From: Acidimicrobiales bacterium
GTDB lineage: Bacteria; Actinomycetota; Acidimicrobiia; Acidimicrobiales; SZUA-35
Direction of reading: 5' to 3'
NCBI GenBank assembly: GCA_020630065.1
Contig: JAHDCC010000006.1
Location: forward strand, 125,695 to 189,694
Length of the DNA: 64,000 nucleotides
The position numbers and the translations under genes are program-made. Position 1 is the stretch's first letter. Each line of letters starts with the position of its first letter. Shown here piece by piece: positions 44,232 to 62,885 of the stretch. The notes under the pieces were generated by a model that was not told the origin of the DNA, ran no database searches, and saw nothing but the letters and a program-made list of their open reading frames with translations.

Positions 44232-44896
44232 AGTAGGTCGGTTGACGGTGACTGCTGTTCAAGATAGTCAGCCAACAGGGCGCGACCTTTCGCAATACGT
44301 CCGCGGGTGGTGTTGATGTTGGTGTCGGTCGCGTCGGCGACTTCTTGGTACGACAGGCCTTTGATTTCCCGGAGCTCCACCACCTGACGGTATGGTTCGG
44401 GAAGAGCCTCAATAGCGTCACGGACCGTTGATTGATTAGCCGTGATCGACGTAAACCGAACATGTGGCGCAGCTAAATCGGCCTTATTCGACTGGCTTAA
44501 TTCCTTACGGCGGCGAAGAAGCATCAGTGATGAGTTAGTCGCAAGCCGATGCAGCCAGGTCAAAATATTTGACTCGGCTCGGAACTGTTGTATCGACCGT
44601 GCAACCTGCATCATCGCGTCTTGTTCCGCATCTTGCTGATCGGTTGGTTCGAATAACTGTCGACGAATAGCGGGCTTAAGGATTTCAAGCCGATCGATGT
44701 TCTCTAGCAGAGTTTCTAACGCTTCAGAGTCGCCGGCGGCCGCTAACTTTGCGCAGATCTGTAGAGGAACCCGAGCCTCGGCGTGGGTAGTTGCCTGTGT
44801 CAGCTGACGTTGAACAAGTTTGAGATCGCCCGCTTTCATACAGTTCATAGGATAGTTCAGTCGTCGGCGAGCGCAACGACATGTCACCGGCAACAT
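44228..44896 (-). CDS. ECF-type RNA polymerase sigma factor
   Basis: The protein has a C-terminal sigma-70 region 4 ('DAIEALPEPYRQVVELREIKGLSYQEVADATDTNINTTRGRIAKGR', residues about 155-205) and a region 2-like part in the middle ('DAMMQVARSIQQFRAESNILTWLHRLATNSSLMLLRRR'). The N-terminal 80 residues form an unrecognised helical extension. The first ATG is 44896; ATGs at 44848 and 44839 are alternatives. Overlap with the kinase gene (ATGA) makes this an ECF-kinase pair, a known way to control extracytoplasmic responses by phosphorylation instead of an anti-sigma factor. Confidence 0.9.
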   Translation of the reverse strand: MLPVTCRCARRRLNYPMNCMKAGDLKLVQRQLTQATTHAEARVPLQICAKLAAAGDSEALETLLENIDRLEILKPAIRRQLFEPTDQQDAEQDAMMQVARSIQQFRAESNILTWLHRLATNSSLMLLRRRKELSQSNKADLAAPHVRFTSITANQSTVRDAIEALPEPYRQVVELREIKGLSYQEVADATDTNINTTRGRIAKGRALLADYLEQQSPSTDLL

Positions 44897-44914: not shown

Positions 44915-44951
44915 GTTGATCCCGTTTGGACATAATCCAAACGGGATCAAC
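44915..44951. terminator. Perfect 16-bp hairpin after the giant DUF11 protein gene
   Basis: GTTGATCCCGTTTGGA (44915-44930) and its exact complement (44936-44951) flank a 5-base loop. It lies between the stop of the giant gene and the start of the sigma gene, both on the minus strand. It is likely a terminator, though the T run on that strand is weak (TGATAATAG). Confidence 0.6.
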
Positions 44952-44977: not shown

Positions 44978-47900
44978 CTATGCCGCCTCGGACTCTCTTC
45001 TGCGGGCAGCGAACAGAAGTACACCACCTGCGGTGATGGCAGCTAACGCCAACGACCCGAGTAGCGCTGAGCTGGCTCCAGTGAACGGCAACGACTTGGC
45101 AACGTTTGCTTTCTTAGCTTGGAGACGATCAGGGATTCCGTCCCCGTTAGCGTCGCCTCTCAACTCGTTGGCGTCAAGAATGCCGTCTCCATCAGAGTCC
45201 AGGTCCAAGTAGTCCGGGATGCCGTCGCCGTCGGTGTCAATATCGGATTCCTCCGAGTCGGGTAGGCCATCTCCGTCCGAATCGTTGTCAACAACTGCGA
45301 CTTCGTCATCGGTTGGCGGCTCAACACCTAGCTTTGGGTTACCTTCTGGGTCAGAAGGAGTACCCGTCGTCTTAGCGTTATTTTCGTATATGCCGGAAAG
45401 GGTGCTGACCGAAATTTCGACCGTGCAGGTTACGGTGTCGCCTGGTGAAACTGGTCCAGCCAAATCTGAACACGTCCCGCTGTCGGCGGTTACGTCATCG
45501 GAAGCGTCAGCTGGGGTTCCATTGTCATCGTCGACGACAATGTCGGTCAGGTGGGTTCCGCCCGTGTTAGTGATGGTGTACGTGAACGGAATGAGCCCCT
45601 CTACACCCACATAGGTCTCGCCGTCAGCGGCGTCACCAGCCGTCTTGACAATCTCAATGCCTGGGTAGAGACTTACGGCGTCGTCCCCATCCGTTGGGTT
45701 TTCGAACAGCGGTTCGCCTTCTTCGAACATTGGGTTGCCGTTTTCATCGAGTACGGGGTGGCCGTCTTCGTCGAGGATCGGGTCGCCGTCGGTGTATGGC
45801 GTACCACTCGAGTTCGTTGGTGTTCCCGTCGTTGAAGCATTGTTCACGTGGGTGGCATCGTCGACTTGAATCTCGACGGTACAGGTGACGCTGTCTCCGG
45901 GAGCGATCGGTCCTGCTAAGGCCGCACACTCTGCCGAGGTCAACGCTACATCGTCAGATGGGTCCGCTGTGGCGGCGTCATCGGTGATCGTCACATCGGT
46001 GAGATATGTTCCGCCCGTATTGGTGACGGTGTAGTTGAACGGTACGAGACCAGGACCGTCGATGACATAGTCTTCGCCGTCGGCTGCGTCGCCAGCTGTC
46101 TTGATGATCTCGATTCCCGGTGGCAGTATCACGGTTGCAGGGTCTTCGTCGGTCGGGTCTTCCAGATCTAACGGTTCACCAGGTTCATACGTCGGATTGC
46201 CTTCGTCATCTAGAACCGGGTTGCCTTCATCATCCAAAATCGGTTCGCCCTGGGCCAGATATTCGTCACCGTTTTCGTCGGTTGGTGAAGCTGTTGTGCC
46301 CGCGTTGTTGGTGTACGGGCTAGTCGCCAGCTCGACTGGAAGTTCGAGGGTGCAGGTCACGCTGTCGCCGGGGGCGATCGGTCCTGCTAGGTCGGCGCAT
46401 TCGGTCGACGTTAGGGTTACGTCGTCGGATGGGTCAGCTGGTGTGCCCGCGTCATCGGCGATCGTGGCTTCGGTTAGGTACGTGCCGCCCGTGTTGGTCA
46501 CTGCGTAGGTGAAGGTCACCATGCCAGGTGTTTCACTAACGAAGAGTTCGTTGTTCTCGGCGTCACCTGCAGACTTGACGATCTCTATGCCCGGAATCAA
46601 CGTAACCGCGTCGTCGTCGTCGGTTGGGTCCTCGAACAGTGGGTCGCCTTCCTCGAAGGTTGGGTTGCCGTTCTCGTCGAGGATCGGGTCACCGTTGGAG
46701 TCCAGGATCGGGTCGCCGTCGGTGTACGGTGTCCCGCTCGAATCGGTCGGTGTTCCCGTTGTTGTAGCAGTATTTGTGTGGTTGGTTTCGTCGACTTGGA
46801 TCTCGACGGTACATGTGACGCTGTCGCCGGGGGCGATCGGTCCGGCTAGGTCGGCGCATTCGGTCGACGTTAGGGTTACGTCGTCGGATGGGTCGGCTGG
46901 TGTGGCGGCGTCATCGGTGATCGTGGCTTCGGTTAGGTAGGTGCCGCCCGTGTTGGTGACGGTGTAGGTGAACGGTACAAGCCCGGCCTCGTTGATCACG
47001 TAGTCGTCGCCGTCGGCTGCGGTGCCCGCAGTTTTGATGATCCCGATCGCCGGTGGAAGAATGACCGTCGATGGATCTTCATCGGTCGGATTCTCAATAC
47101 CGGGATACGGTTCACCAGCTGGGTCCGACGGGGTACCCGTGGTCCCAGCGTTGTTGGTGTACGGGCTGGTGGCCAGCTCGACTGGAAGTTCGACGCTACA
47201 CACGACGGAGGTTCCGGGAGCGATCGGTCCGGCTAGGTCGGCGCATTCGGTCGACGTTAGGGTTACGTCGTCGGATGGGTCGGCTGGTGTGCCCGCGTCG
47301 TCAGTGATCGTCGCATCGATCAGGTGCGTTCCGCCCGTGTTGGTCACCGTGTAGTGGAAGGTCACCATACCGGGGGTTGGGCTCACATAAAGTTCGTCAT
47401 CGTCGGCGTCGCCCGCCGTCTTGGTGATCCCAATGCCGGGGTAGAGCGTCGTTGCGTCGTCGTCATCGGTTGGGTCCTCAAATAGCGGTTCGCCGTCTTC
47501 GTCGGTGTATTCATTTCCATCTGCGTCGGTTGGTGTTCCGCTTGCGCTTGCAGTGTTTACATACGTCGGAGAGTCAACCTCAACGTCTAACGTGCAGCTA
47601 ATAGCGTCGCCTGGGGCCAACGGTCCTTCGAGGTCAGCACAGTCAGCTGACGTCAACGTTACATCGTCGGACGGGTCGGCAGGTGTGCCTGCATTGTCGA
47701 CGATTTCAATGTCGCTCAAGTACGTACCGCCATCGTTAATGATCGCAAAGGTGAAGGTGACGGTTCCGTCAGAGTTCATCACAAACGTTTCACCGTCGGC
47801 GGCAGTAGCCGCCGTTTTCACAATGTCGATTGAAGGTGGGACGAGAACTTCAGCGTCGTCGTCATCGGTTGGGTTCTCTATACCCTCTATCGGGTCGCCG

Positions 47901-50900
47901 CCGTCGTTGGTTGGTACACCTTCGGTGCTCGCCGAGTTTAGATACGGACTGTTGTCGGTCGTCACCGGTAAGTCAAGGGTGCAGGTGAGGTCGTCGTCTG
48001 GAGCTAACGGTCCAGCGAGAGCGGGACAGTCGGTGGCCGTCAACGTCACATCATCGGTTGGGTCGCCGGGAGTTCCGGCGTCGTCGGTGATGGTGATGTC
48101 GCTTAAGTCGGTACCGCCATCGTTTTCGACGAGGAACGTAAAGGTGACGGTTCCTTCAGGGTCGTTGACATATATTTCGCCGTCGGCTGCCGTGCCCGCA
48201 GTTTTGGTGAGCTTGATTGACGGAGATGGTGAAAGCGATAGTGGTACGCCTGCTTCGTCGTCGTGGGTGTCGGTTCCAGAGTCCAAAGATGGGTCAGCCT
48301 CTTCATCATCCGGTCCGTCACCTTCGGTGTTGTCGTCTGGGTGCGAGTCAATATCTGAACCGGAATCACCAGCACCGTCGTCGGTCACCTCAGCGAAGTT
48401 AAACACCGGGTCAGTCAGCGAGTCAGCCGAAATTGTGTAGGTGAGCTGGATGGTTTCGGTTTGTGCAGGCAAAAGTTGGCCGACGTCCCAAACCGGGTCG
48501 GTGTAGGTTCCGGCGCTAGGGTTCGCCGATGCGGCCACGTAGGTCAAACCGGCTGGGGTGTCGGTGACTTCCACGTCTGGGGCATCGTCGGGTCCGTTGT
48601 TTACCACCGTGATCTCAAACGTGACTTCTTGACCGAGTACATACGGTCCGGGTGTTACGAGTTGTTTGTCTAGTTCGACATCGAATACTCGTAAGCGATA
48701 CCCAAAGTCGACGTCTAGTTGGTCTTCTACACCCGTGATGTTGCCGGTCACCGGATCGGTTTCAGAATCTAATGTGAAGGTCGCTGAATTGTCTAGTGCC
48801 CCCAGACCGTCATCCAGGTCATAGGTTTGAATACCAGGAGGGTCAGCAACCTCAATGGTGTATTCGCCAGGAGGGAGGTTCTCGAAAAGGTACGTTCCGT
48901 CCGGCTCGGTCTGGATAGTGTATTCCTCTAACGTCACGCCAGTTGCTGCTTCGTACGCTGCCTTGTCGGCGGCCGTGATGACCGCGCCGGTAGCAGGGTC
49001 AACATAGAGTGGGTCGCCGTTTGCGTCGAAAATTTGAAGCGTAATGTCCTCGATTGGGATGTCGGTGCCAGCTACGTTTCCATCATCGTCGTAGTCCCAC
49101 CAGACAAGTCCTCCAGCAGAACCGGATACGGGAGTAACGGACACGTCGTTCGAGATAACGTTCAACGAGATTTCTGGTATCCGGCCACCAAAGCTATTGG
49201 TGTAGACATCACCAATATTAGGAGAGTTGGCCCAGTCGACAACTTGAACGCCATTAGCGTCGGTCGTGTAGACAGGGTCACCGCCGAGGTTGCCGGTCGG
49301 GTCGAGTGTGAGAGAAACCGTTTTGCCGCCGGTGTTCGGCACGGCGGGTGCCTCGAAGCGGATAGCCGTGATGTCTTCAGGAGCGATCGGACAATCAGAG
49401 GCGACCGTCAGCGGTGAACCAACAACCGCGCACGCCTGCCAGCTCGCGCTATAGGTGCCAGCGGCAACACCGTCAGGTAGAAGGTTGCCATTATTGATGT
49501 AGTCCTGATGGCAGAGATCACCAGCGACAGGTGTATACCCGAGAGGCTTATTCGAGCTGGCGCACGGGTCGAGGTTAAGCGTTGACGGGTTCACGTTCGT
49601 GACCCAAAAAGTTTCGTTATTAGCAAACTCGATATCGGTGACAGCGTAGTATCCGTTGAAGTCCGAAGCCGGGTCACGTTCTGATTGCTGCCCACCGATA
49701 TTGGTGGCGGCGTCACCGTTGAACGGCAGAATATCGATGAACTCGCCACCAGTGTAGGCTTCGCCGCCAAGGTTCTTGTATGTCAGGTCGAACTGGAATG
49801 GTTCGTCGACGTTATACACCTCTTGGGAAACCTGCTTCAATAGGTCAAACCCGAATTTCGGCAGAATCGTGAGTTTGTAGGCGGCTGACACGTCGTCGCC
49901 GACGCCGTCACCGGCATCATCAATGCCGTCACCGTCAGTATCCTCACTGAACACATCCGCAGCGATATTCGGCGACGAGAACGTAGCCGTGTTAGTGAAA
50001 CTACCCGAAGTCAATGATGGGTCGACCTGAACTTTGTAGCGGATCAGCGGCATCTGGTCGCCGGAGTCGATCGATGAGAACGACCAGACTATCGGGTCTT
50101 GGGCGTTTGGGGTCGATGAACTGTCTAACACGACATCGGGTGAAGACGCTACATAATCTGCGTGGGATAGCCAGGTTGTTCCGCCGTCGGGGCTAAACTC
50201 TTCGGTGCCAGCAATGTAGGTAGTGCCGGGAGGTAGGTTGTCGTTAATGGTGCCGGTCTCAGATCCGGTCCATAGGCCAAAGACGGTTGGCTCAATTTCG
50301 AACTGAACGATGTCGCCACCGCGGACCACTTTGATACCTTCAGGCACGGTTGCTTTAGCCACCGAAATACCGGATGGAACGAGGATATTCCGGTCGGCGG
50401 AGTAGATGTTGTAGCTGAACGATACGTTGTTCGGGTCTTGGACAGCGTCGGTGGCGTTATCCTGCCACGCCAGCCACGTATCGTTGTCGCTAGAGTCGCT
50501 GCGGCGAGCATCGGCGTAGTTCGGAAGATAGTTTTTAGGGCCGTAGCCGGTAGCGTCAGCGCGAACCTTTAACTCATAGAGTTGGCCGACTTGAACGTTC
50601 TGATAGTCGGGGGCTCCGGACAATGCGGCTAGACCTGGATCGTCGTGGATGTATTGTAGGCGAACTTTGGTTACGCCACCCGACCCGTCGGCAGCCGCGG
50701 GAACGGCGGCGAAGTCTTCATACCAGTCAACGGGACCAGCCGTCGGGTTGCCGTCACCGTCGACAAGCGTGCCGTCGGCTAGCTGAATTACTGCAGCTCC
50801 GTCGCCATTGGCATCGTCTTCGCAAACCGTGGTGTCGAGGTCGGCTAACGAACCAGTTCCGTTAGGCACCCCGGAATACAACGACTGTGTGTACGGCTCG

Positions 50901-52786
50901 GAGTCGAAGAAGTACCGCTCACCGGCCCCACCACCCCAAATCATGCCCGAAGGGTTGTTCTTGGTTCCGCCGTTAACGTAGGTGGCGTCTACGGCTCGGT
51001 CCCAGAAAAGGATGTCGATCACACCAGCGGGGTCCGAATAGGTTGGGTACTTATCCCAGGCGGGGACGCCAACAAACTCGTATTGCGTGGTATCGATCTT
51101 GTCGCATATCTGTGACTGGCCTCCGTCGATCCGTCGGTAGTCGTAGAGTTTCAACGAGACCGGTAAGAGTTCGCCTTTGGCTCTGAGCTGTTCAGCGATC
51201 TTTGGGTAGTACGACGTGCCGTCCGATGTTCGTTGGAACGTTTTGCGATACGTCCAGACACCAGGGCTCGAAACTTGCAGCAGTCCGTTGGTGACGTTGT
51301 CGCTATTGGCGGTGTGAACGTCAGGGCTGTTAACGCCACCAGGCTCTGATCCGGCGCCATAGTTATCAAGGTTGTTGCCAGCCGCGTCTTCGGTCGACTG
51401 TGGAGCGAAATCACCTGGCTCGTTAGTAGTAGTGTCGAGGGCCTGTGCTTCGTTGATATGGAAATACTGGCACGTGCCGCCAGAACAAGTCGGGTGATTA
51501 TCGACATCGGCCTTGGGAATCCAAATGCCGATGCGGACATTAAACAAGGTGCCATTGCCATCGGGGTCGCGGGTGTCGATATTGTCGAGGTCGATATGGA
51601 AGTTCGGGTCGTTCACGCCGTCGGGAGTAAACGATGGGCCAGACCAGTCGAACGGATGGTTGGGCTGGGTACAGGTGGCGGACGCCCCGGCGCCGTTGTC
51701 GCCGTTAAACGAACAGGCCGAATAGGTGGGGTCCCAATCGTAGAGTAACGCGCCGGCCGACAATGCGCCATCATTGTTGGTGTTATCGTCGGTGAAGATG
51801 TCGACCAAATCAAAGTCGGCGTCGAAGAAGAACCCGTCGCCGTCGTTGTCAACCAGTTCGTCCGGTGAGTCGGCGATCATCGAACCTTTTTGATACGTCG
51901 CCAAAATATCGTACTCGGCTAAATACCCCTCTTCACCCGACGGGCCGGGTTTGGCATCAAGCTTCGGCCAAATAGGGTTACCGTCGCCATCAATGGCAAA
52001 GCCAACCATTTCCTTGGTCAAATTGACCGCAAAGTCAGCGGTCACAAGCGCTTCGGCCGGGCCATCGGTGGCGGTAGCCGACGTTCCGTTGTTGCCCGTC
52101 GCCGCCGAGTTAGAAATACCCTCAGCAGTAACACTGGCGCTGACGATCGAGTCGTTAATCGTGGCGGTCGAGCCGTCGGTAGCGGAGCCAAGAACTTTGG
52201 CTGCGGGGAAGAAAACTTTGTTGGTACCTTCGCGCGCAAACCCAAGATTACAGAAGAGGGTTTCGTTGTATCCGTCGCCATCAAGATCCTGTAAAGCCGA
52301 TGGGGGAATAGCGAACAGCGGATCTGTTTCACAACCTGAAGGCAGCTCGATCCATTCTTGATGAACGGTGCCCGCCGGGTCGGGTAACTGGGTGATCTGA
52401 TTGACCGGGTCGAACGTGACAGTGGCGGTCAAGTAGTCAACGTCGGAGTCGTTGTTCGAGACTTCGACCTTATAGGTGACTGAGTCTCCCAGACGAACCA
52501 CGTCATTGTCAGAACAGGTGTCGTTGCCGTCATGTCCCGCTCCGTCGTTACCGTCGTCGATTACGACTCCATCGCTGAAGGTGCGGTTCGTGTCGTAGGT
52601 ATTGCCGTCGAGACAGTCGTCGTCGCCGTCAGAGGTGTCAAACGGTTCCGAACCGGTCTTTTCCAGCTCGATAGTTACATCGGTTACCGGAACTGCCGCC
52701 GCGGTAGGGCTTTGGACCACTAGCAGTGACGCAATCAAAACTAGAGGGTAGAACAGAACAAGTTTTCGCCGAGGAGATACACGCAC
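44978..52786 (-). CDS. Giant sortase-anchored surface protein with DUF11-type repeats
   Basis: About 2600 residues. I place the start at GTG 52786 (AAGGA seven bases upstream), giving a signal peptide 'LVLFYPLVLIASLLVVQSPTAAA'. Residues 40-1220 are long beta-rich Asp-rich regions with several DUF11-like domains. An SdrD B-like unit follows ('GLVWWDYDDDGNVAGTDIP', near residue 1222), then a classic DUF11 ('VTFEITVVNNGPDDAPDVEVTD'), then seven 130-160-residue repeats, then a TSP3-type calcium-binding run (DSDGDGLPDSEESDIDTDGD). The end is 'SLPFTGASS', a membrane helix and 'RRRESEAA', a sortase signal. It is an adhesin or stalk-like wall protein. No sortase gene is in the window. Confidence 0.9.
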   Translation of the reverse strand: MRVSPRRKLVLFYPLVLIASLLVVQSPTAAAVPVTDVTIELEKTGSEPFDTSDGDDDCLDGNTYDTNRTFSDGVVIDDGNDGAGHDGNDTCSDNDVVRLGDSVTYKVEVSNNDSDVDYLTATVTFDPVNQITQLPDPAGTVHQEWIELPSGCETDPLFAIPPSALQDLDGDGYNETLFCNLGFAREGTNKVFFPAAKVLGSATDGSTATINDSIVSASVTAEGISNSAATGNNGTSATATDGPAEALVTADFAVNLTKEMVGFAIDGDGNPIWPKLDAKPGPSGEEGYLAEYDILATYQKGSMIADSPDELVDNDGDGFFFDADFDLVDIFTDDNTNNDGALSAGALLYDWDPTYSACSFNGDNGAGASATCTQPNHPFDWSGPSFTPDGVNDPNFHIDLDNIDTRDPDGNGTLFNVRIGIWIPKADVDNHPTCSGGTCQYFHINEAQALDTTTNEPGDFAPQSTEDAAGNNLDNYGAGSEPGGVNSPDVHTANSDNVTNGLLQVSSPGVWTYRKTFQRTSDGTSYYPKIAEQLRAKGELLPVSLKLYDYRRIDGGQSQICDKIDTTQYEFVGVPAWDKYPTYSDPAGVIDILFWDRAVDATYVNGGTKNNPSGMIWGGGAGERYFFDSEPYTQSLYSGVPNGTGSLADLDTTVCEDDANGDGAAVIQLADGTLVDGDGNPTAGPVDWYEDFAAVPAAADGSGGVTKVRLQYIHDDPGLAALSGAPDYQNVQVGQLYELKVRADATGYGPKNYLPNYADARRSDSSDNDTWLAWQDNATDAVQDPNNVSFSYNIYSADRNILVPSGISVAKATVPEGIKVVRGGDIVQFEIEPTVFGLWTGSETGTINDNLPPGTTYIAGTEEFSPDGGTTWLSHADYVASSPDVVLDSSSTPNAQDPIVWSFSSIDSGDQMPLIRYKVQVDPSLTSGSFTNTATFSSPNIAADVFSEDTDGDGIDDAGDGVGDDVSAAYKLTILPKFGFDLLKQVSQEVYNVDEPFQFDLTYKNLGGEAYTGGEFIDILPFNGDAATNIGGQQSERDPASDFNGYYAVTDIEFANNETFWVTNVNPSTLNLDPCASSNKPLGYTPVAGDLCHQDYINNGNLLPDGVAAGTYSASWQACAVVGSPLTVASDCPIAPEDITAIRFEAPAVPNTGGKTVSLTLDPTGNLGGDPVYTTDANGVQVVDWANSPNIGDVYTNSFGGRIPEISLNVISNDVSVTPVSGSAGGLVWWDYDDDGNVAGTDIPIEDITLQIFDANGDPLYVDPATGAVITAADKAAYEAATGVTLEEYTIQTEPDGTYLFENLPPGEYTIEVADPPGIQTYDLDDGLGALDNSATFTLDSETDPVTGNITGVEDQLDVDFGYRLRVFDVELDKQLVTPGPYVLGQEVTFEITVVNNGPDDAPDVEVTDTPAGLTYVAASANPSAGTYTDPVWDVGQLLPAQTETIQLTYTISADSLTDPVFNFAEVTDDGAGDSGSDIDSHPDDNTEGDGPDDEEADPSLDSGTDTHDDEAGVPLSLSPSPSIKLTKTAGTAADGEIYVNDPEGTVTFTFLVENDGGTDLSDITITDDAGTPGDPTDDVTLTATDCPALAGPLAPDDDLTCTLDLPVTTDNSPYLNSASTEGVPTNDGGDPIEGIENPTDDDDAEVLVPPSIDIVKTAATAADGETFVMNSDGTVTFTFAIINDGGTYLSDIEIVDNAGTPADPSDDVTLTSADCADLEGPLAPGDAISCTLDVEVDSPTYVNTASASGTPTDADGNEYTDEDGEPLFEDPTDDDDATTLYPGIGITKTAGDADDDELYVSPTPGMVTFHYTVTNTGGTHLIDATITDDAGTPADPSDDVTLTSTECADLAGPIAPGTSVVCSVELPVELATSPYTNNAGTTGTPSDPAGEPYPGIENPTDEDPSTVILPPAIGIIKTAGTAADGDDYVINEAGLVPFTYTVTNTGGTYLTEATITDDAATPADPSDDVTLTSTECADLAGPIAPGDSVTCTVEIQVDETNHTNTATTTGTPTDSSGTPYTDGDPILDSNGDPILDENGNPTFEEGDPLFEDPTDDDDAVTLIPGIEIVKSAGDAENNELFVSETPGMVTFTYAVTNTGGTYLTEATIADDAGTPADPSDDVTLTSTECADLAGPIAPGDSVTCTLELPVELATSPYTNNAGTTASPTDENGDEYLAQGEPILDDEGNPVLDDEGNPTYEPGEPLDLEDPTDEDPATVILPPGIEIIKTAGDAADGEDYVIDGPGLVPFNYTVTNTGGTYLTDVTITDDAATADPSDDVALTSAECAALAGPIAPGDSVTCTVEIQVDDATHVNNASTTGTPTNSSGTPYTDGDPILDEDGHPVLDENGNPMFEEGEPLFENPTDGDDAVSLYPGIEIVKTAGDAADGETYVGVEGLIPFTYTITNTGGTHLTDIVVDDDNGTPADASDDVTADSGTCSDLAGPVSPGDTVTCTVEISVSTLSGIYENNAKTTGTPSDPEGNPKLGVEPPTDDEVAVVDNDSDGDGLPDSEESDIDTDGDGIPDYLDLDSDGDGILDANELRGDANGDGIPDRLQAKKANVAKSLPFTGASSALLGSLALAAITAGGVLLFAARRRESEAA
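45350..48220 (-). repeat. Seven tandem DUF11-type repeats
   Basis: Repeat starts, read on the minus strand, lie near 48220, 47834, 47440, 47055, 46595, 46120 and 45665. Each begins 'I.I.K.AG.A..' and contains 'TVTNTGGT.L....I.DDAGTPADPSDDVTLTS..CA.LAGP.APGD'. Units 4 to 7 are longer owing to inserted Asp/Glu/Pro stretches ('LDENGNP.FEEG.PLFE'). High similarity of neighbouring units indicates recent duplication, and long antisense open frames here are a side effect. Confidence 0.88.
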
Positions 52787-53103
52787 GCCGTAATCCTTAA
52801 GATATGGGATACCTACCTGTTCGTCTCTAAGGGCGAGTTTGTTTAGCAATACCCACGTAGAAGACTCATAATTGGTCCATTTGGGGGTCGGAAGGGGGTG
52901 GTTCGGCCCACTGGGCGCCTAATAAGCAGCATGACTAACGGCTCAGTGGTCATAGCGGAGACCTAAGATTGATTCAGTCTGTCGATGATAAGAATGGCGC
53001 ATCGCCGGATAGCGTGGTTTGCTCAGAGCGCGCCGATGTGTGCATGCTGAGTTCCCTGTTGCTACCTATGCTTCAGGTCCGTCGTCGAAGCCAAGGTGGA
53101 CAA

Positions 53104-53808
53104 ATGTCTGGTGACCATATTCGTGTTGTCTCATGGAACATCAAGTTTGGGATTGAAATCGACACTGCGATTCGAGAGTTACGTCAGATCGACGAGGTAA
53201 CCGCCCCGGACATCCTCTTACTGCAAGAAATGGATGAGAAAGGCACCGCCCGTATCGCCGAAGCCCTCGACGCCGACTATGTTTTTACAACTCTCGGGCC
53301 GCACCAACAAAGTGGCCGAGACTTCGGCAACGCTATTGTCTCTTCTTGGCCGATCGGAGGCTTAGCGGAGGTCCATCTTCCACACCAGGCACGTTTCAGC
53401 GGCCATCCACGTATGGCGACCCGGGCAAGCGTTTCGGTACGCTCTAACGAAATATTGACCTACAGCGCCCACACAGAGATACCATTTCTGCCGTTACGTC
53501 TTCGACGCGAGCAGTTCAATCGGCTGGCCGAAGACGTTTCTCAGGTTGGGGGCAGCCATTCGATAATTGGCGGAGACTTCAACACTCTGACCCGCAGAAT
53601 CGGGCTGTCTGCAGTTCGGTCTTCTTTAGGTGAGGCTGGACTGTCGCACGTTTCAGCGGAATCTGGCCCGACGTTGCCGTTCTGGCGGCTCAAACTGCCT
53701 TTGGACCACATCTTTGCGTCGGGGTTTTCTGTGGTCGAGACCGGTGTTGCGTGGACGGCTTCAGCGAGCGACCATAAACCAATTTGGGTGGATCTAGTAG
53801 CGAACTAG
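53104..53808 (+). CDS. Endonuclease/exonuclease/phosphatase family protein
   Basis: From ATG 53104 (AAGGTGG five bases upstream) the 234-residue product shows the EEP fold: 'IRVVSWNIKFG' (Asn), 'DILLLQEMDEKG' (metal Glu), 'SIIGGDFNTLTRR' (Asp-x-Asn), 'LDHIFASG' and 'SASDHKPIWVDL' (final Asp-His). This hydrolyses phosphodiester bonds in nucleic acids, phospholipids or similar; the substrate is not specified. No signal peptide is seen in this form. A longer in-frame start at 52969 exists but lacks support. It lies between two giant wall-protein genes with no evident link. Confidence 0.85.
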   Translation: MSGDHIRVVSWNIKFGIEIDTAIRELRQIDEVTAPDILLLQEMDEKGTARIAEALDADYVFTTLGPHQQSGRDFGNAIVSSWPIGGLAEVHLPHQARFSGHPRMATRASVSVRSNEILTYSAHTEIPFLPLRLRREQFNRLAEDVSQVGGSHSIIGGDFNTLTRRIGLSAVRSSLGEAGLSHVSAESGPTLPFWRLKLPLDHIFASGFSVVETGVAWTASASDHKPIWVDLVAN

Positions 53809-54060
53809 AAAGTTGTTAGGTCCCAAATCTGATGGTCTCGCTTGAACTGTTAGGTTGACTGATGGCTGGTGATAGCTCGATTTTGGTCCCCTATCTGTCT
53901 GCAGGCTGTCTGTGCTGCTTCTGGGTCGGTAGGCCCAGGTCGTTCTGACCACTTGATATAGATTGATCGATTGTTTCTAAATAGTCTTTCCAACCATGCC
54001 GTACTAGGACTGAGCGCAATCGCGCGGGTAATTGTGCCCAAGATTTTTTTAGGAGCTGAG

Positions 54061-57000
54061 ATGGGTTCGTGGCTAAACGTTCGATCTGGAAAGATCAAGT
54101 GGACGTCAGAAATGATGACTAGGACGCTGGTGTCAAGTCTAGTTCTAGCTATGATCGCTAGTTTCTTGACGATCGTTGATACGACGCCTGCATTTGCTGC
54201 TGGAGGTGACAACATTTCTGGTGTTGTTTTCCGCGATGAAGGATGGGATGGGTCAAAGTCTGGTGATGTCGGTGAGGGCGGAGTTGAGGTCACCGTGGTG
54301 GATGACAACGGTGAAACCGCTGGTCCATTTCTTTCAGGTAGCGACGGCTCGTGGTCGACATCGGTTGGTGCACTCGACTCGTTGACCGGACCATACTCAG
54401 TCCAGTTCACGATCCCTGCAGGTAAAGCTCCGCTTCAACCCGGACCGCTAGGCGACGACAATCAGTCGGACGTCAGAATTGTTGCGTCGGGGGTAGTTAC
54501 CAACGCAGACTTTGGGGTGGTCTATCCGTACCACTACTGCCAAGACAACCCGAACGTTGCCACGAACTGCTACATCGAAGGCGACCAGACCGGTGGCGGT
54601 GACGTAATGGTCATGACCGAATATCTCGCAACAGGCGACGGTACACCGGGTGGAGGCGGGACCGCCGAATTCCCGATAGCCGACTCGACCGACATCGGGT
54701 CAACTTGGGGTCTCGCCACTCAGACCTTTAACGACTATGACACCTCGAACGACCGAATTTGGGCCGCCGCTTTTGAAAAGCGCTTCGCCGGATACGGGCC
54801 TTCCGGCCCAGACGCAATCTACTTGGTCAACCCGGCAACCGGAAATGTAGAACAAACCATTACTTCTGTCGATGCAGGTACCGATCAGCACGACTTCACC
54901 CTCGTAGCTCCAGGCAACGAGATCGTTGATGCCGCCAGCTATGGCCTTGTCGGCAAACAAAGCTGGGGCGACCTTGACATCAACGATACACAAGACCGTC
55001 TCTACGCCGTAAACCTCCTGGACCGCAAGCTCTACGAATTCGACATTGACCCTACAAGCGGCGGGTACCTTAGTACCACCGGTAATTGGGATCTGACTGG
55101 GCTTCCTGGTCAGACCTGTTCAGGCGTCATTCGCCCATGGGCTGCCGGGTTTAACGAAGGTCTGATCTATGTTGGGACCACATGCGACGACGGCACCGTA
55201 GCCTACGTTCACACGCTCGATCCATCCGGATCTAGTTTTACGAACGTTCTTACTATTCCGCTGACATATGGTCGTGAACCAATCGGTAACCACACCGGAC
55301 TCACCGCGGAATGGAACGCGTGGGCCGGCGATTCCGAATGGCAAGCTGAAGCCACAGGTTGGGGGCCATCTGAACAGGCTTACCCTCAGCCAGTTCTCTC
55401 CGATATCGAGTTCGACCGAGACGCTTTGGTGCTCGGTGTTCGTGATCGCTATGGTGATCAGTCAGGCTACGACAGTCCAAGTATTAATTACCCAACCGAC
55501 CCAAACCTATACCGCGCCGATTCGGCAGGTGATGTCTTGCGAGCTTGTGCCGGAGTTGGGACCGGATTCATTCTTGAGGGCGATACTGGTTGTGAGTTCT
55601 CTGCTCGAGGTGAAAACCCGGCAGGCCCTGGGGGGGAAGAGTTCTACATTGGTGACGAGTACATCACTACCTTTGGTGGTGTTCACACCGGACACGACGA
55701 AATTAGCTTGGGTGGTCTAGCGACCGCTCGTCCTCGTGGTGACGTCATGATGACCGCCTACGACGCGCTCGACGACAACTACGGCGGAGGCAACAACGAC
55801 TACTCATTCTCCAACGGTCTAGCTCGTCTAGACAACGAAACTGGAGAGAAGATTGGCCAGTACCGGGTAGTTGCTGGAAACTTTGGTAAGGCCGCCGGTC
55901 TCGGTGACATCGAAGCTTTCTGTGAAGGTGCCCCGATTGAAGTAGGGGACCGAGTCTGGTTCGACCGTAATGGCAACGGTCGTCAAGATCCATCCGAGCC
56001 CGCCTTGCCCAATGTCGCAGTAAGTCTTTTCGACGAGAACGATGTTGAGATTGCTGCGACGGTTACGAACGGGTCCGGCATCTACTCGTTCAGTTCTCTA
56101 AACATTCCTGAATTGATTCCTAACGCTGACTACTCGATTGTCTTTGACGAAAGCTCAGCAGACGTTTCTGGAATCGATGGGATAGCTGACGTCACGATTC
56201 TGACCGCAACCACACAGAACGCAGCGGGAGTAAACGCAGACACAGACAGCAATATTGATGTTGATGGTTTGCTTGAATTCACTACCGGTAACGCTGGCGC
56301 CAACGACCATTCTCTAGATGCCGGGTTCCGTGGCGGCCTTCAGATCGGCAACCTCGTTTGGTTCGACCTAAACAACAACGGTGATGCCGACGACGGTGAG
56401 TCAGTTATTTCTGGCCTCACCCTCAACTTGTTCCGTGAAGATGGTGCTGCAGGATTCGACGGAACGGAAGCTCTTGTCGAATCTCAGACCACCGACTCCG
56501 AAGGTTTCTACTCGTTCCGAAACCTCGTCGACGGCGAAACCTACTACGTAGCCGTACCGGAAGATCAGGGTGGCGGCATCATCCAAATTGACGGGCAGAC
56601 ACTAGACGCAATTACACTGCTGTCGTCTACTGGCACCGCCACGAATCCGATTGACAACAACGATGACGGTACCCCGTTTACCGGCTTCCTAGCTGTGACC
56701 GAAGCGATTGTCGTATCCGACGATCCTGCCAGCGAACCGACCAATGAGACAGACACTCCTCCAGATCCAGATACCGATTCTGAAGAAGCGATCTTCATCA
56801 AAACCGACCATCAGGTCGACGACGATGACTCGAACCTTACCTTCGATCTTGGTTTCATTCAGAAAAGCAGAATCGGTAACTTGGTTTGGCTTGACGGAAA
56901 ATCGGGGGAGGCTGGCTTTAATAACGGCATCGCTGACCCCGCCGAGTCAGACTACGGTCTGGGTGGCGTCACGGTAGAGCTGTATTCCAGCAATGAAGGT

Positions 57001-60000
57001 GTCAACACCTTTGTTGCCGATACTACAACCGATGATGACGGCCGATATTGGTTCTTTGGTTTAGCTCCAGGCACCTATGTCGTAGCGATTCCTAATGGGC
57101 AAACGGGTCAGACGCTCGAAGGTGAAACAATCGACATTGACGATCTGTTCGTATCTTCTCCTGCGGCTAGTGACGCCGATGAAGGTTTCGATGACCTCAA
57201 CGACGGTACCGTCGATACCGGTAACGGTTTCGCATCGGTATCTAGTCCGTTTGAGATCGACGTCGCCGACAGCCCATCAGATGAACAAGGCGACTTTGAA
57301 GACACCACCGAAGACGCCGCAGAAGTCTCAGCCAACACAGCAACCAGCTTTGTGGTCGACGAGTTCTCCGACCTTACGGTCGACTTCTCGTTCGTAGAAC
57401 AGCCAACATTTAGCATCGGTAACCTTGTCTGGATAGACGACGATGACGGCATCGCCGAAGATGGTGAACCGGGCATCGAAAACGTTGCCGTCGAGCTTTG
57501 GGCTGATGGAGGCAGTGAAGCATACGATACGACCACCACTGACGACGAAGGACATTTCCTCTTCGACGGCCTTCCTGCAGGCGACTTCTTTGTAGTCGTT
57601 CCAGGTGGACAGACCGGTCAACTCGTTGACGGCAACCCTATCGACCTCACCGACCTGCCGGTCGGATCGGATACAGACCTCAACCCGAACAACGATGAGG
57701 ACAACGACAACAATGGTGCGGTCGGGGTAGCGGCTTCACATCTCGAAGATGTCGCTACAGAGTTGATCTCGGTCGGAGAGCCCGACCCGTTCGAACCTAG
57801 CGAACCAACGGATGAGACACTGCGGTCGGACGACCCAACCGACGACGACAACTCATCTGTTGACGACACATCGAACTTGTCGGTTGACATCGCATTCGTG
57901 ATGCCGCTCCGAGTCGGCAACATAGTTTGGTTGGATAACGGTGGCGGAGCGCCAGGCGATGCGACCTACAATCCGGCTGACGAAAACGACGGTGAAGCTG
58001 ACGCCACCGAACGAGGCATTCCAGGTGTGCTCGTTCAGTTGATGGACGATGACGATGTTGTTGTCGCCGAAGCTGTAACCGACGAAGGTGGCCGCTACGT
58101 ATTCGACGAACTGCTGACCGGAACGTTCCGAGTCGGTATACCGACGAATCAAACTCCAATCATCGACCTCGACTTAACTCCCGACCCTGCTGCTTTGTTC
58201 GAACTGCTTAGTTCTCAAGGTCAGTCGGCGACGCCGGAAGCCAGCGACGATGACGACGATGGCGAACCATATCCGGGCTTTGCCTCGCTATCAGCGCAGT
58301 TTGAGTTGGACTTCGGTGCTGAAGCCGAAGACGAGCAAGGAAACTTCAACTCAACAATCGACGACGAAGCAGAAGCAGACGTCAACGATGATTTCCCATG
58401 GCTGCCAGACGGCAACTCTAACCTTGAGATCGACTTTGGGTTTGCGCCGACACCGATGTTCGTGATCGGCAACCTTCTATGGGAAGATTTTGACAACGAC
58501 GGAATAGCCGACAACGGCGAACCGGGAATTTCCGGAGCGCTCGTTCAACTACTCGATAGTGACGGTGTTGTCATTGCTGAAACCACCACCGACGAAGACG
58601 GTCACTACCGGTTCGTGAATATCGAAGAAGGAACATACTCGGTTAGTGTTCCAGCCGATCAGCAGCCAACGCTTGGACCGGTTGTTGGTCTTGACCCGGA
58701 TGCACTTGACGGGCTCGAAATTTCAGACACGGTAGTCGCCGACCCGGACGATCCGGCGTCAATCGACAACGACCATAATGGTGTCGATTCGAACGGCGAC
58801 GCTACGTCCGGTCCGATCAGTGTGGGTGAAGGTGATAGCCATTCTGAACCAACTGGTGAGTCTCTGCGATCTGACGACCCTGCCTCAGATGAACTCAACA
58901 CCGACCGGGCGGACCGCACCGACTTGACCGTTGACTTCGGGTTCTGGCGGGGCTTGCGTCTCGGTAACCAAGTATGGCTCGATGGCGTTCAAGGCGAAGA
59001 CGGCTACGACAACGGAATTATGGAGTCGACCGAAGCCGGAATCGGTGGAGTCACCGTAGAACTTTGGATTGACAACGACGACGACGGTGACGCTGAACCT
59101 GATGGCGACGACGGCGTCAACCCAGAGATGGAAACCATCACTGATGACGAAGGCAACTACTGGTTCGAGCATCTCGACGAAGATGTCGCCTACTTTGTTG
59201 TTATCCCATCTGTGCCTGACGGTTTCTCGTCGACCGGACAATCCGGCGACCCGGTTACCTCCGACAATGACGACGACGGCGCACCTAACGGTGGGAACGC
59301 TGCAGTGTCAGATGTTGTTACGCTGACGGCGGGTGGAACCTCAACCGACGAAGCTGACAGCAATCCGGCTGAAGACGCCGAAGCTGAAGCGAACACGGTT
59401 CTGGTCGAAACGGTGCCAGACGCCAACTCAGAACTGCTAGTCGACTTCGGATTTATCGAAGTTCCCGTCTTTCGTCTAGGCAACCAAGTTTGGAATGACC
59501 TCGACGCTGACGGGCTGGCCGATAGTGACGAATCAGGAATTGCTGGTGTGTTGGTTCAACTCACCGCCAACGACGGAACCGTTATCGCTGAAACTGCCAC
59601 TGACGAAAATGGAATGTACAGCTTCGATAATCTCGCAGCAGGCCAATACATGGTCGTCATCCCAGCTTCGCAGACCCCGGCTCTAGGAGCCGTAGAGGGA
59701 CTTGTCGCCGCTGCGCTGGACGGATTCGTTTCTTCAGTTACTGAGGAAGCCGACCCGAACGACGATGTCGACAACAACGACAACGGCGTCCTGGTTGACG
59801 ACGTCTGGAAGACGGCCAATATTTTGCTTGGCCCAGATCCGGTTGCTCCTCCGTTTGGGGTGGAGCCTACCAACGAAGTCAACCCGTTTACCGCAGTTGA
59901 CGACGACCCTGACCAAGGTGAAGAAGGGTCGTATCCAGATGACTTCTCGAACTTCACGGTCGACTTTGGTTTCACCAAGCTAACCCTTGGTAACCAGATT

Positions 60001-62811
60001 TGGTCTGACGTAGATGCCGATGGCGTAGTCGATCCCGACGAGCCAGGTATCAACGGTGTCGTGGTTCAACTGTTCAAGGTTGATCCCGGTACAGGTGAAC
60101 TCAGCTTTGTCGAGTCGACAGTGACTGTGCCTACCGCTGACGGTGACGGGTTCTATGTCTTTGATGGACTAGAAGAGGGAGCTGAATATGTTGTACAAGT
60201 TCCCGCATCCGAGTTTGCCGAGGGCGGACCGCTAGACGGACTGTTCTCAAGCCCGGACCCTGATCCAGTAGTCGATCCTAACACTGGAGGCGACGACGAT
60301 AACGGTATCGATAATGATGACAACGGAATCGATCCCGAGAATTTCGGTGACTCGGTCCAAACCGCTGGAGTTGTGGTTAGCGCCAGCGACGAACCAATCA
60401 ACGAAAACCCTGACGGCGACCTGACCGTTCACGATCCGAACACAAACTTGACGGTAGATCTTGGATTTGCTGGCTTGGCGGTTGGTGACACGGTTTGGGC
60501 CGACGATGACGGTGACGGCACCATCAATGGTGACGAATCCGGCATAGCGGATGTTGTTGTCGAGTTGTGGTTAGTGGATGAAGACGGAGAACCGGTCGGG
60601 GAATCCCCGTTTGCGACGACCACCACCGCACCAGACGGAACGTTCCTATTCGGTTCGCTAGTTCCTGGAACGTTCAAGATTGTGTTGCCTCAAGAGAACT
60701 TTGTTGAAGGCGGGCCGCTTGAAGGTATGACGTCGACTATCGGTAATGGTGTAGTGGCACCGGCCGTCGATGATGACGCTACTGACAGCGACGACAACGG
60801 CAACGTCGATCCCGACGGTCTGACGATTTCTACTGCTCCGTTTACGCTGGCGTTCGGCGACGAACCAACCGGTGAGGCCGGAGAGCCTGGAAGCGTACAT
60901 TCAACGAACACTAACTTGACGGTCGATCTCGGCTTGGTTGAAGTGCCGCCGATGAGTATCGGTAACCAAGTATGGATGGATGTCGATAACTCTGGCGTCC
61001 TCGACGGGGACGAAGTTGGTGTCGCCGATGTGGTGGTTGAACTTTGGGCCGTCGACGCTGACGGAAACCCCGTAGGCGACGACCCAGCCCAGACCGTGAC
61101 CACCGACGAAGAAGGTAACTACCTGTTCGTCGATGTTGCTCCCGGACAGTTCATTGTTGTGATTCCTTCGGTCAACTTCGATGCCGACGAGCCGCTAGAG
61201 GGAATGTTCTCTTCAGCAGCCGTCGTAGCTTCAGACCCCGATGATGATGTCGACGGGGACGATCAAGGTTTCGACCCTGCCGAGGTTGGAGCTGACGTCG
61301 TGAGCGAACCTGTGACGTTGATACCTTCGTTGGAGCCGCTAGACGAGTCGACCGGCGCTGAGGGTCATGGCCAGGTTGATGGCGTTGAAATCGCAGATGC
61401 GAACTCGAACCTGACACTAGACTTCGGGTTCTTCCCGTTGGGTGTCGGCAACCGGGTATTCTTCGATGCCGATAACTCGGGCACCTTCGATGAAGGGGAA
61501 ACCGGCTTTGCTGGCGTTGAAGTAACTCTACAAACCGAGGATGGCGAACTTGTTGCGACCACGGTTACCGACGAAGACGGATACTACCTGTTTGGTGGGT
61601 TCAATGAAGGTGACTATGTGGTTGTGCTCGGATCTTCGAACTTTGAAGATGGTGGGCCATTAGACGGCTATCACTCTTCGACTGGAAACGGTGTCGCCCC
61701 TGACCCTGACGAGTTGGTGCTTGACAACGACGACAATGGAGATCCCGTTGACGGTGCTGGAAGCGCCATCGTTACTCCTCCGATCACGCTCAATGTTCAA
61801 ACCGAGCCAACAGCCGAGGTTGAACTTGACGTGAACGAGGACCACGATATTCCGGTTGACGCCAACAGCGATTCAACGGTTGACTTTGGTCTATACACCG
61901 CTGATATTGTGACGACTCTGTGGACTGACACCAACAATAATGGTGAGGTCGACGAAGGCGAAACACCTCTTGCCGGTGTCATTGTTGAACTTCTCAACGA
62001 GGCCGGAGAGGTTATTGCGACAACTGTTTCAGACGAGAACGGGCTAGTCACGTTCACTGGGCTGGAAGAAGGAACCTATCGTTTGAAGATCCCAGCCGAG
62101 AACTTCGAACCGGGCGGTGCGTTGGAAGGCTTGACATCGACAACCGGTTTGAACGGCGTCGATGCCGGTATTGATCCTAATGGTGATGACCGGTCTGTGA
62201 TCAGTGGCCTGTTTGAAGTGACAGCTGGCGACAACCCAGAACTAAACGTGTTCGGCGCTGACAGCGACGCTGCGTTTGGTTTCACTCCGACCGGTTCTGT
62301 TGGCGACTTTGTCTGGGATGACCTCGACGGTGATGGCTTGCAAGATCCGAACGAACCAGGTCTTCCAGATGTCGAGATCAACGTCTTCCGAGTCGACCCT
62401 GAGACAGGCGAACCGTCGCAGGAACCCGTACACACGGTTACCACGGATTCTGACGGGGCGTTCGAGGTGGACGATTTGCCGCCTGGTGAATTTATTGTTG
62501 ATGTGGAAACTCCGGCCGGTACCGATCCTTCACCGAAGGATCAAGGCGGAGATGACACGTTGGATTCTGACATCAAACCTGATGGACGAACCGACGTTAT
62601 CCAGATATTGGCTGGCGAGAAACGCGCCGACATCGACGCCGGGTTTGTTACCCCAAGTTCTGGATCGGACGCCGCGAGCGACTCGGGCACCCCACCTAAT
62701 GAACTTGCATTCACCGGTTCAAACCTGAAGACCCTGATGGGTGTGTCGACGATGTTGATACTTGCTGGTGTGGTTCTCGGGCTGCTCACGTACCGTCGTC
62801 GTACTGCGTAG
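54061..62811 (+). CDS. Giant sortase-anchored surface protein with SdrD B-like repeats
   Basis: About 2916 residues from ATG 54061, supported by AGGAG seven bases upstream. The signal peptide is long (LVSSLVLAMIASFLTIVDTTPAFAA). A first B-like unit ('DNISGVVFRDEGWDG') is followed by a unique domain to residue about 620, with 'QDRLYAVNLLDRKLYEFDID' that suggests a beta-propeller. Then come fourteen SdrD B-like repeats, each opening '.IGN.VW.D.(D)N(D/G)G..D..E.GI..V.V.L'. The DxNxDG parts are calcium-binding. The end is 'ELAFTGSNLKTL', a membrane helix and 'YRRRTA': an LAxTG-type signal, as for class E sortases. It is probably a rigid rod holding the N-terminal domain away from the cell. Confidence 0.9.
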   Translation: MGSWLNVRSGKIKWTSEMMTRTLVSSLVLAMIASFLTIVDTTPAFAAGGDNISGVVFRDEGWDGSKSGDVGEGGVEVTVVDDNGETAGPFLSGSDGSWSTSVGALDSLTGPYSVQFTIPAGKAPLQPGPLGDDNQSDVRIVASGVVTNADFGVVYPYHYCQDNPNVATNCYIEGDQTGGGDVMVMTEYLATGDGTPGGGGTAEFPIADSTDIGSTWGLATQTFNDYDTSNDRIWAAAFEKRFAGYGPSGPDAIYLVNPATGNVEQTITSVDAGTDQHDFTLVAPGNEIVDAASYGLVGKQSWGDLDINDTQDRLYAVNLLDRKLYEFDIDPTSGGYLSTTGNWDLTGLPGQTCSGVIRPWAAGFNEGLIYVGTTCDDGTVAYVHTLDPSGSSFTNVLTIPLTYGREPIGNHTGLTAEWNAWAGDSEWQAEATGWGPSEQAYPQPVLSDIEFDRDALVLGVRDRYGDQSGYDSPSINYPTDPNLYRADSAGDVLRACAGVGTGFILEGDTGCEFSARGENPAGPGGEEFYIGDEYITTFGGVHTGHDEISLGGLATARPRGDVMMTAYDALDDNYGGGNNDYSFSNGLARLDNETGEKIGQYRVVAGNFGKAAGLGDIEAFCEGAPIEVGDRVWFDRNGNGRQDPSEPALPNVAVSLFDENDVEIAATVTNGSGIYSFSSLNIPELIPNADYSIVFDESSADVSGIDGIADVTILTATTQNAAGVNADTDSNIDVDGLLEFTTGNAGANDHSLDAGFRGGLQIGNLVWFDLNNNGDADDGESVISGLTLNLFREDGAAGFDGTEALVESQTTDSEGFYSFRNLVDGETYYVAVPEDQGGGIIQIDGQTLDAITLLSSTGTATNPIDNNDDGTPFTGFLAVTEAIVVSDDPASEPTNETDTPPDPDTDSEEAIFIKTDHQVDDDDSNLTFDLGFIQKSRIGNLVWLDGKSGEAGFNNGIADPAESDYGLGGVTVELYSSNEGVNTFVADTTTDDDGRYWFFGLAPGTYVVAIPNGQTGQTLEGETIDIDDLFVSSPAASDADEGFDDLNDGTVDTGNGFASVSSPFEIDVADSPSDEQGDFEDTTEDAAEVSANTATSFVVDEFSDLTVDFSFVEQPTFSIGNLVWIDDDDGIAEDGEPGIENVAVELWADGGSEAYDTTTTDDEGHFLFDGLPAGDFFVVVPGGQTGQLVDGNPIDLTDLPVGSDTDLNPNNDEDNDNNGAVGVAASHLEDVATELISVGEPDPFEPSEPTDETLRSDDPTDDDNSSVDDTSNLSVDIAFVMPLRVGNIVWLDNGGGAPGDATYNPADENDGEADATERGIPGVLVQLMDDDDVVVAEAVTDEGGRYVFDELLTGTFRVGIPTNQTPIIDLDLTPDPAALFELLSSQGQSATPEASDDDDDGEPYPGFASLSAQFELDFGAEAEDEQGNFNSTIDDEAEADVNDDFPWLPDGNSNLEIDFGFAPTPMFVIGNLLWEDFDNDGIADNGEPGISGALVQLLDSDGVVIAETTTDEDGHYRFVNIEEGTYSVSVPADQQPTLGPVVGLDPDALDGLEISDTVVADPDDPASIDNDHNGVDSNGDATSGPISVGEGDSHSEPTGESLRSDDPASDELNTDRADRTDLTVDFGFWRGLRLGNQVWLDGVQGEDGYDNGIMESTEAGIGGVTVELWIDNDDDGDAEPDGDDGVNPEMETITDDEGNYWFEHLDEDVAYFVVIPSVPDGFSSTGQSGDPVTSDNDDDGAPNGGNAAVSDVVTLTAGGTSTDEADSNPAEDAEAEANTVLVETVPDANSELLVDFGFIEVPVFRLGNQVWNDLDADGLADSDESGIAGVLVQLTANDGTVIAETATDENGMYSFDNLAAGQYMVVIPASQTPALGAVEGLVAAALDGFVSSVTEEADPNDDVDNNDNGVLVDDVWKTANILLGPDPVAPPFGVEPTNEVNPFTAVDDDPDQGEEGSYPDDFSNFTVDFGFTKLTLGNQIWSDVDADGVVDPDEPGINGVVVQLFKVDPGTGELSFVESTVTVPTADGDGFYVFDGLEEGAEYVVQVPASEFAEGGPLDGLFSSPDPDPVVDPNTGGDDDNGIDNDDNGIDPENFGDSVQTAGVVVSASDEPINENPDGDLTVHDPNTNLTVDLGFAGLAVGDTVWADDDGDGTINGDESGIADVVVELWLVDEDGEPVGESPFATTTTAPDGTFLFGSLVPGTFKIVLPQENFVEGGPLEGMTSTIGNGVVAPAVDDDATDSDDNGNVDPDGLTISTAPFTLAFGDEPTGEAGEPGSVHSTNTNLTVDLGLVEVPPMSIGNQVWMDVDNSGVLDGDEVGVADVVVELWAVDADGNPVGDDPAQTVTTDEEGNYLFVDVAPGQFIVVIPSVNFDADEPLEGMFSSAAVVASDPDDDVDGDDQGFDPAEVGADVVSEPVTLIPSLEPLDESTGAEGHGQVDGVEIADANSNLTLDFGFFPLGVGNRVFFDADNSGTFDEGETGFAGVEVTLQTEDGELVATTVTDEDGYYLFGGFNEGDYVVVLGSSNFEDGGPLDGYHSSTGNGVAPDPDELVLDNDDNGDPVDGAGSAIVTPPITLNVQTEPTAEVELDVNEDHDIPVDANSDSTVDFGLYTADIVTTLWTDTNNNGEVDEGETPLAGVIVELLNEAGEVIATTVSDENGLVTFTGLEEGTYRLKIPAENFEPGGALEGLTSTTGLNGVDAGIDPNGDDRSVISGLFEVTAGDNPELNVFGADSDAAFGFTPTGSVGDFVWDDLDGDGLQDPNEPGLPDVEINVFRVDPETGEPSQEPVHTVTTDSDGAFEVDDLPPGEFIVDVETPAGTDPSPKDQGGDDTLDSDIKPDGRTDVIQILAGEKRADIDAGFVTPSSGSDAASDSGTPPNELAFTGSNLKTLMGVSTMLILAGVVLGLLTYRRRTA
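55937..62640 (+). repeat. Fourteen SdrD B-like tandem repeats
   Basis: Units begin near 55937, 56338, 56866, 57409, 57907, 58459, 58957, 59470, 59983, 60475, 60952, 61438, 61903 and 62296, a spacing of 390-550 bases. The core of each is about 100 residues of beta sandwich, and the added length is an acidic loop of varying size. Units are diverged, unlike the recent repeats in the 44978-52786 protein. Confidence 0.85.
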
Positions 62812-62833: not shown

Positions 62834-62885
62834 AGCCCAGCCCCGGTCGGAAAACTTTGTTCCGACTGGGGCTGGGTTCGTTTTG
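62834..62885 (+). terminator. Strong intrinsic terminator after the giant B-repeat gene
   Basis: A 19-bp stem (62834-62852 with 62860-62878, two G-U pairs) around a 7-base loop is followed by CGTTTTGTCTT. It lies 22 bases after the stop and should isolate the next gene. Confidence 0.85.

Follow-up and report, generated by a model that had tools for sequence, protein, structure and literature searches.

More than 90% of the predicted stalk-domain members of the fibrillar adhesins in a large survey carried no known adhesive domain (PMC9210967). SdrD B domains bind three calcium ions and unfold only at forces above 2 nN; domains locked by isopeptide bonds, against which the authors set them, do not unfold (PMC6232131). 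A survey of 2025 predicts for DUF7507 an isopeptide triad of Lys72, Asp112 and Asn152, with a Lys-Asp spacing of 40 residues, and reports that disulphides often accompany isopeptide bonds (PMC12617251). Class E sortases of Streptomyces use the motif LAXTG (PMC5148588).

Here we analysed two giant genes of an uncultured member of the Acidimicrobiales. Their products have the features of fibrillar-adhesin-like proteins, namely repeated stalk domains (seven DUF7507 plus DUF11 in giant 1; 14 SdrD_B in giant 2) and a C-terminal sortase motif. Pfam found no known adhesive domain in the N-terminal part of either giant, and they are therefore filed only as "adhesin-like". We consider it fairly probable that they are two independent proteins of this kind, each anchored in the wall and carrying its N-terminal head at the end of a long stiff stalk, with a swappable head in giant 2.

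Layout of the locus and relatives of the giants

The draft genome of the host comprises 3.70 Mb in 81 contigs, and the window, which is the whole stretch of 64,000 nucleotides that was analysed, lies at G000:C16:125695-189694. The following features define the locus.

44918-44948, minus strand: hairpin 3' of giant 1, GATCCCGTTTGGA...TCCAAACGGGATC, without a T run
44978-52849, minus strand: frame of giant 1, 2,623 codons, read in the preliminary description from TTG 52849
44978-52786, minus strand: giant 1 gene from its likely start, GTG 52786 (AAGGA seven bases 5' of the GTG; orthologues in G018, G014, G009 and G021)
52969-53808, plus strand: gene of the endonuclease/exonuclease/phosphatase family between the giants (PF03372, E = 8e-19)
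53971-62811, plus strand: frame of giant 2, 2,946 codons, read in the preliminary description from TTG 53971
54061-62811, plus strand: giant 2 gene from its likely start, ATG 54061 (ATG after AGGAG; 2,902-aa orthologue in G014)
62834-62878, plus strand: strong intrinsic terminator 3' of giant 2, 19-bp stem
62937-64000, plus strand: gene 3, a secreted sortase substrate with DUF11 and, further on, LALTG; continues beyond the window

The two giant genes of the preliminary description are real, both frames running without interruption, and their repeat families differ far beyond chance, as it had claimed (DUF7507, E = 1.6e-68, and DUF11, E = 7e-38, versus SdrD_B, E = 2.7e-206). The genes diverge but do not stand back to back, since the endonuclease/exonuclease/phosphatase-family gene sits between them. 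The starts GTG 52786 and ATG 54061 are likely ones, suggested by the Shine-Dalgarno-like stretches. A third secreted gene with DUF11 domains does follow, from 62937. Outside the window a tandem duplication of the 13-nt GGTGTCGGCGTCT breaks its frame (L005:2741-2766, corresponding to about window positions 64046-64071, some 46 bases beyond the window edge), and the contig ends 92 bases 3' of the gene. The gene could be inactivated, or the break could be slippage-type variation or an artefact of assembly.

Directly behind giant 1, an ECF-type sigma factor gene (44228-44896) overlaps the start of a Ser/Thr kinase gene (42885-44231), both on the minus strand. A regulatory link between this pair and giant 1 is possible; no homologue of the pair lies beside the giant 1 orthologues, so that such regulation is not claimed. 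Elsewhere in the window, genes for a type II/IV secretion ATPase and type II secretion F-like, VWA-containing proteins occupy 5964-9226 on the minus strand, as in Tad-type pilus loci; short frames at 27467-28281 resemble, by eye, fragments of IS30- and IS3-type transposases, that is, degraded insertion sequences; and a cluster of the sugar-uptake type at 29293-35765 comprises an ABC ATPase, a family 1 glycoside hydrolase, a solute-binding protein and a permease.

The genes had been taken together as a surface-protein island that may encode a fibrous coat or attachment apparatus. On this reading, taken as one co-regulated apparatus of both giants and the third gene, the genes are indeed adjacent and gene 3 carries a sorting signal as well, but the orthologues do not keep this arrangement. 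Giant 1 has orthologues in G018 (2,624 aa), G014 (2,673 aa) and G009, all with unrelated neighbours and with no flanking genes shared across the three genomes, and in G014, which belongs to a different genus, the orthologues of giants 1 and 2 lie on one contig 214 kb apart. An unrelated gene and the strong terminator moreover separate the units, the frame of gene 3 is broken, and at least five further large proteins of the giants' kind are encoded on other contigs of the host.

Contig C75 (L072, G000:C75:26000-43000): 3,395 aa, 23 DUF11, LAFTG; exceeds both giants of the window
Contig C68 (L175, G000:C68:14000-27000): 2,956 aa, 22 DUF5979, N-terminal DUF6923 domain, sorting signal
Contig C41: 2,776 aa
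Contig C26: 1,869 aa
Contig C54: at least 1,465 aa, the frame being cut by the contig end

A joint apparatus is thus very improbable and the island reading largely refuted; a single fibrous coat made of both giants finds no support in these results. In the literature we found no paper on giant proteins of this type in Acidimicrobiales or Acidimicrobiia, but giant SdrD_B/DUF11 proteins are common in the genomes of the order, and frames of more than 3,000 codons with SdrD_B/DUF11-type repeats are common in the genomes of the family.

Anchoring and the stalk of giant 1

Both giants begin with a signal peptide and end in a sorting signal.

44981-45091, minus strand: giant 1 sorting signal, LPFTG, hydrophobic stretch and RRR tail (Gram_pos_anchor)
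52694-52786, minus strand: giant 1 signal peptide, ending ...PTAAA/VPVTD (from the sequence)
54061-54201, plus strand: giant 2 signal peptide, ending ...TPAFAA/GGD (from the sequence)
62704-62808, plus strand: giant 2 sorting signal, LAFTG, hydrophobic stretch and RRR tail (from the sequence)

The signal-peptide junction of giant 1 recurs behind differing leaders in the orthologues of G018, G014 and G009. Four sortase genes were found in the host draft, one of class E (NF033747, 178.8 bits against a cut-off of 160) and three nearest to class F. None of the four scored above the cut-off for the class C pilin sortase, and a sortase-assembled pilus was rejected for want of this class in the draft. 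Class E sortases were present in 58 of 61 related genomes. The LAXTG motif is matched by LAFTG of giant 2 and LALTG of gene 3, whereas giant 1 deviates with LPFTG. The simplest reading is that both giants would be exported and their C-termini fixed covalently to the peptidoglycan by the single class E sortase of the genome. The LPFTG of giant 1 is the weak point of this reading, softened by its orthologue in G018, which ends in LAFTG. Surface anchoring and a stalk-like build are supported by the signal peptides, the sortase signals, the class E sortase and the fibrillar-adhesin repeat families.

Giant 1 is divided as follows.

49130-52693, minus strand: N-terminal region of about 1,190 aa, of no known family apart from a weak likeness to DUF11 in its last third
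48701-49114, minus strand: SdrD_B-like domain (23.8 bits, below the Pfam cut-off of 29.7)
48326-48682, minus strand: DUF11 (CLIPPER) domain
45290-48232, minus strand: seven DUF7507 (CLIPPER_2) repeats, each with the Lys-Asp-Asn triad and a Cys pair

For the N-terminal region Pfam gave only a DUF11 match in the last third (E = 7e-6), and a sequence search of the N-terminus and the stalk against the PDB returned no match. The repeat array, described earlier as of the DUF11 type, actually consists of the seven DUF7507 repeats and one DUF11 domain. The DUF7507 match reaches 227.8 bits against a cut-off of 27, with Pfam delimiting eight stretches and the sequence containing seven Lys/Cys units. Within each unit the Lys and the Asp are spaced by 40 residues and the two Cys lie 15 residues apart, and none of the 26 aligned DUF7507 repeats from the host, G018, G014 and G009 departs from the Lys, the Asp, the Asn or either Cys. 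The 981-residue DUF7507 stretch contains only 10 Lys and no Arg, besides 14 Cys and 202 acidic residues. Even so, every repeat has one of these few lysines at its triad position, for which the chance under random placement is about 7e-16, and this is strong evidence that the triad lysines are under selection for the triad role. The stalk of giant 1 would then be locked in each DUF7507 repeat by an intramolecular Lys-Asn isopeptide bond together with a disulphide, both predicted. The structural model of DUF7507 is modest (pLDDT 78.6), and its Ig-like structural matches are weak (best E 2.8e-3).

The repeats of giant 1 had been called recent, which holds in one case and fails for the others. Repeats 3-4 and 5-6 are 77-82% alike in protein with 78-81% nucleotide identity, and seem to have arisen when a two-repeat unit was duplicated within this lineage, whereas repeats 1, 2 and 7 find their best matches in the positional orthologues of other genera. 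The change in repeat number across genomes is slight in giant 1, its orthologues containing eight (G018), six (G014) and at least five (G009, at a contig end) Cys-pair units, and giant 2 is steady. A reading of the arrays as products of recent expansion or of faulty assembly finds support in the likeness of repeats 3-4 and 5-6, but Tandem Repeats Finder reported no large array, orthologues of similar length exist in other genera, and the repeats of giant 2 match in order across genera, which refutes this explanation for giant 2; it is scarcely credible overall. Assembly error in particular is unlikely because independent genomes carry orthologues that are close to full length and similar in size (2,624 and 2,673 aa for giant 1; 2,902 aa for giant 2). 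Recent tandem expansion was accordingly rejected, the one exception being the two-repeat duplication of giant 1.

The stalk and the probably exchanged head of giant 2

The domains of giant 2 are arranged as follows.

54208-54525, plus strand: SdrD_B-like domain N-terminal of the head (from the alignment; 68 of the 80 loci with homologues have SdrD_B before the head)
54523-55923, plus strand: head, beta-propeller-like domain of 467 aa, frame residues 185-651 (AlphaFold, Foldseek)
55900-55950, plus strand: head-stalk switch point, about codon 650, with G019 nearest on the head side and G014 nearest on the stalk side (identities cross, in 50-residue steps)
55924-62655, plus strand: stalk of 14 SdrD_B repeats with DxDxDG-type loops (14 stretches by Pfam)

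The repeats of the stalk are nearly devoid of Lys, lack Cys pairs and align with S. aureus SdrD in the PDB, and by analogy with the latter they may bind calcium; the stalk would be stiffened by calcium in each SdrD_B repeat. Membership of giant 2 in the MSCRAMM Sdr proteins was rejected. The N2-N3 head and the Ser-Asp region are missing, as neither a Pfam match to N2-N3 nor a Ser-Asp run was found in the translation, and the score against NCBIfam SdrD (385 bits) is far below the cut-off of 2500. The 14 repeats match, in order, those of the 2,902-residue orthologue of G014; nearly all have their best match at the identical position, the exceptions being repeat 11, which matches equally well one place along, and repeat 14, whose divergence prevents positional assignment. 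No DNA repeat of at least 60 nt occurs within giant 2. These repeats, correctly recognised as diverged SdrD B-like ones in the preliminary description, are to judge from their sequences old.

The head matches no Pfam or NCBIfam family, and no relevant family was matched by its 80 aligned homologues either; a search of the PDB by sequence with the head profile gave nothing significant. AlphaFold, run with an alignment of 81 sequences, modelled it with a pLDDT of 92.7 and a pTM of 0.94, and the top Foldseek matches in the PDB are beta-propellers, with E values of about 1e-6 and TM scores of only about 0.4. The head is thus a confidently predicted beta-propeller. A single scan covered 84,980 species genomes and confirmed homologues at 236 loci. 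The best 80 of the 236 come, by title, from Acidimicrobiales, Streptomyces, Bacteroidota, Chloroflexi, Acidobacteria, Proteobacteria and Limisphaerales, a list which contamination of metagenome-assembled genomes (MAGs) could inflate and which includes isolates of Streptomyces and of several Bacteroidota; the closest named relatives among these 80 are MAGs titled uncultured Acidimicrobiales bacterium. In every one of the 80 loci SdrD_B comes directly after the head in the domain order, and in 68 it stands on the N-terminal side too, as counted with a profile built from giant 2's own repeats.

In Streptomyces, short head proteins of 741-817 aa (L119, L131, L142 and L156) have no recognisable sorting signal. 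They are possibly free secreted forms and would suit laboratory work, and such versions without a sorting signal would mean that the head can act unanchored.

The propellers matched by Foldseek include binding ones (LRP6, nidogen, TolB) and enzymatic ones (6-phosphogluconolactonase type, paraoxonase). The head might accordingly be an enzyme displayed on a stalk, a propeller of the lactonase, phosphogluconolactonase or glycosidase type, with which the enzymatic propellers among the best matches and the 11 columns invariant in 81 head sequences, including D308, K456 and W267, are compatible. Yet the binding propellers match equally well at TM scores of about 0.4, and the head matched no catalytic family, and we regard an enzyme as rather improbable.

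Comparison of the window with two relatives separates the head from the stalk. Against G014 the head is 34% and the stalk 49-59% identical, whereas for G019 the values are 69% in the head and about 40-48% in the stalk. In a head tree of 15 sequences the window and G019 were joined with 99/98 support and the grouping with G014 was rejected (AU p 2.7e-10), while the stalk tree of 15 sequences joined the window and G014 (100/99) and rejected the grouping with G019 (AU p 1e-7), p values which are somewhat optimistic as both groupings had been suggested by the identities ahead of tree building. It follows from the conflicting trees that the head, together with the domain in front of it, was probably exchanged at least once on a retained stalk, in a direction that cannot be read from the trees. 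The G014 head forms a long branch, and for the G014 row alone a swap for a distant head looks no different from rapid change. Faster evolution of the G014 head alone was rejected, as it does not account for the fall in identity to G019 at the codon of the switch.

These features bear on the possibility that both giants serve as structural fibres of the wall or form a coat layer, in which length or bulk is decisive and the heads bind no ligand. The giants are very acidic and long, their repeat number is nearly conserved across genera, and several such proteins occur within one genome. A bulk spacer, however, does not predict that the N-terminal region of giant 1 is more conserved than the stalk (69-80% against 64-67% identity to G018 and G014), nor that the head of giant 2 was apparently exchanged as a unit, and a mere wall fibre is in our judgement unlikely. 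We favour instead adhesin-like proteins whose long stiff stalks would hold the N-termini away from the cell, where the N-terminal parts would meet a ligand, in giant 1 through the region conserved above its stalk and in giant 2 through the exchanged propeller, and so could mediate adhesion. More specifically, we give an even chance to the proposal that this unnamed beta-propeller family, framed by SdrD_B and spread over several phyla, is an exchangeable ligand-binding cartridge, replaced by recombination exactly at the head-stalk boundary on a calcium stalk whose fixed length is kept. A fixed stalk with an exchanged head amounts to a natural experiment on how bacteria alter what they hold. The head family is uncatalogued, yet its 236 loci include cultivable Streptomyces, Spirosoma, Runella and Fibrisoma, so that its function could be tested in ordinary laboratory strains. 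The locus further places a stalk with predicted covalent locks beside one with predicted calcium locks, allowing two answers to mechanical load to be compared.

Comparison with known systems

The closest described proteins are those fibrillar-adhesin-like proteins of Actinobacteria that have a known stalk and lack a known adhesive domain (PMC9210967), with which the giants share a signal peptide, a stalk of SdrD_B/DUF11 kin, a sortase signal and an unannotated N-terminus. They differ in that the N-terminal gap is filled in giant 2 by a predicted propeller that occurs across phyla and was apparently exchanged between stalks; the text of the survey does not mention a propeller. With the isopeptide stalks of CLIPPER and CLIPPER_2 (PMC12617251), giant 1 shares the Lys-Asp-Asn triad, the 40-residue Lys-Asp spacing and the Cys pair, but its stalk is almost without basic residues beyond the triad Lys, and its bonds are predicted ones.

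Giant 2 shares SdrD_B repeats, calcium-type loops and the link from head to sorting signal with the staphylococcal MSCRAMMs SdrD and SdrG (PMC6232131), from which it differs by its 14 repeats and by a propeller-like head in place of N2-N3. CshA-type adhesins with shuffled ligand domains (PMC10952558) likewise show exchange of the tip domain; in giant 2 two conflicting trees place the switch at the head-stalk boundary, and the tip is propeller-like. The giants are ordinary in kind, and what is real and testable is an uncatalogued propeller head, found in several phyla and probably exchanged at the boundary of its stalk.
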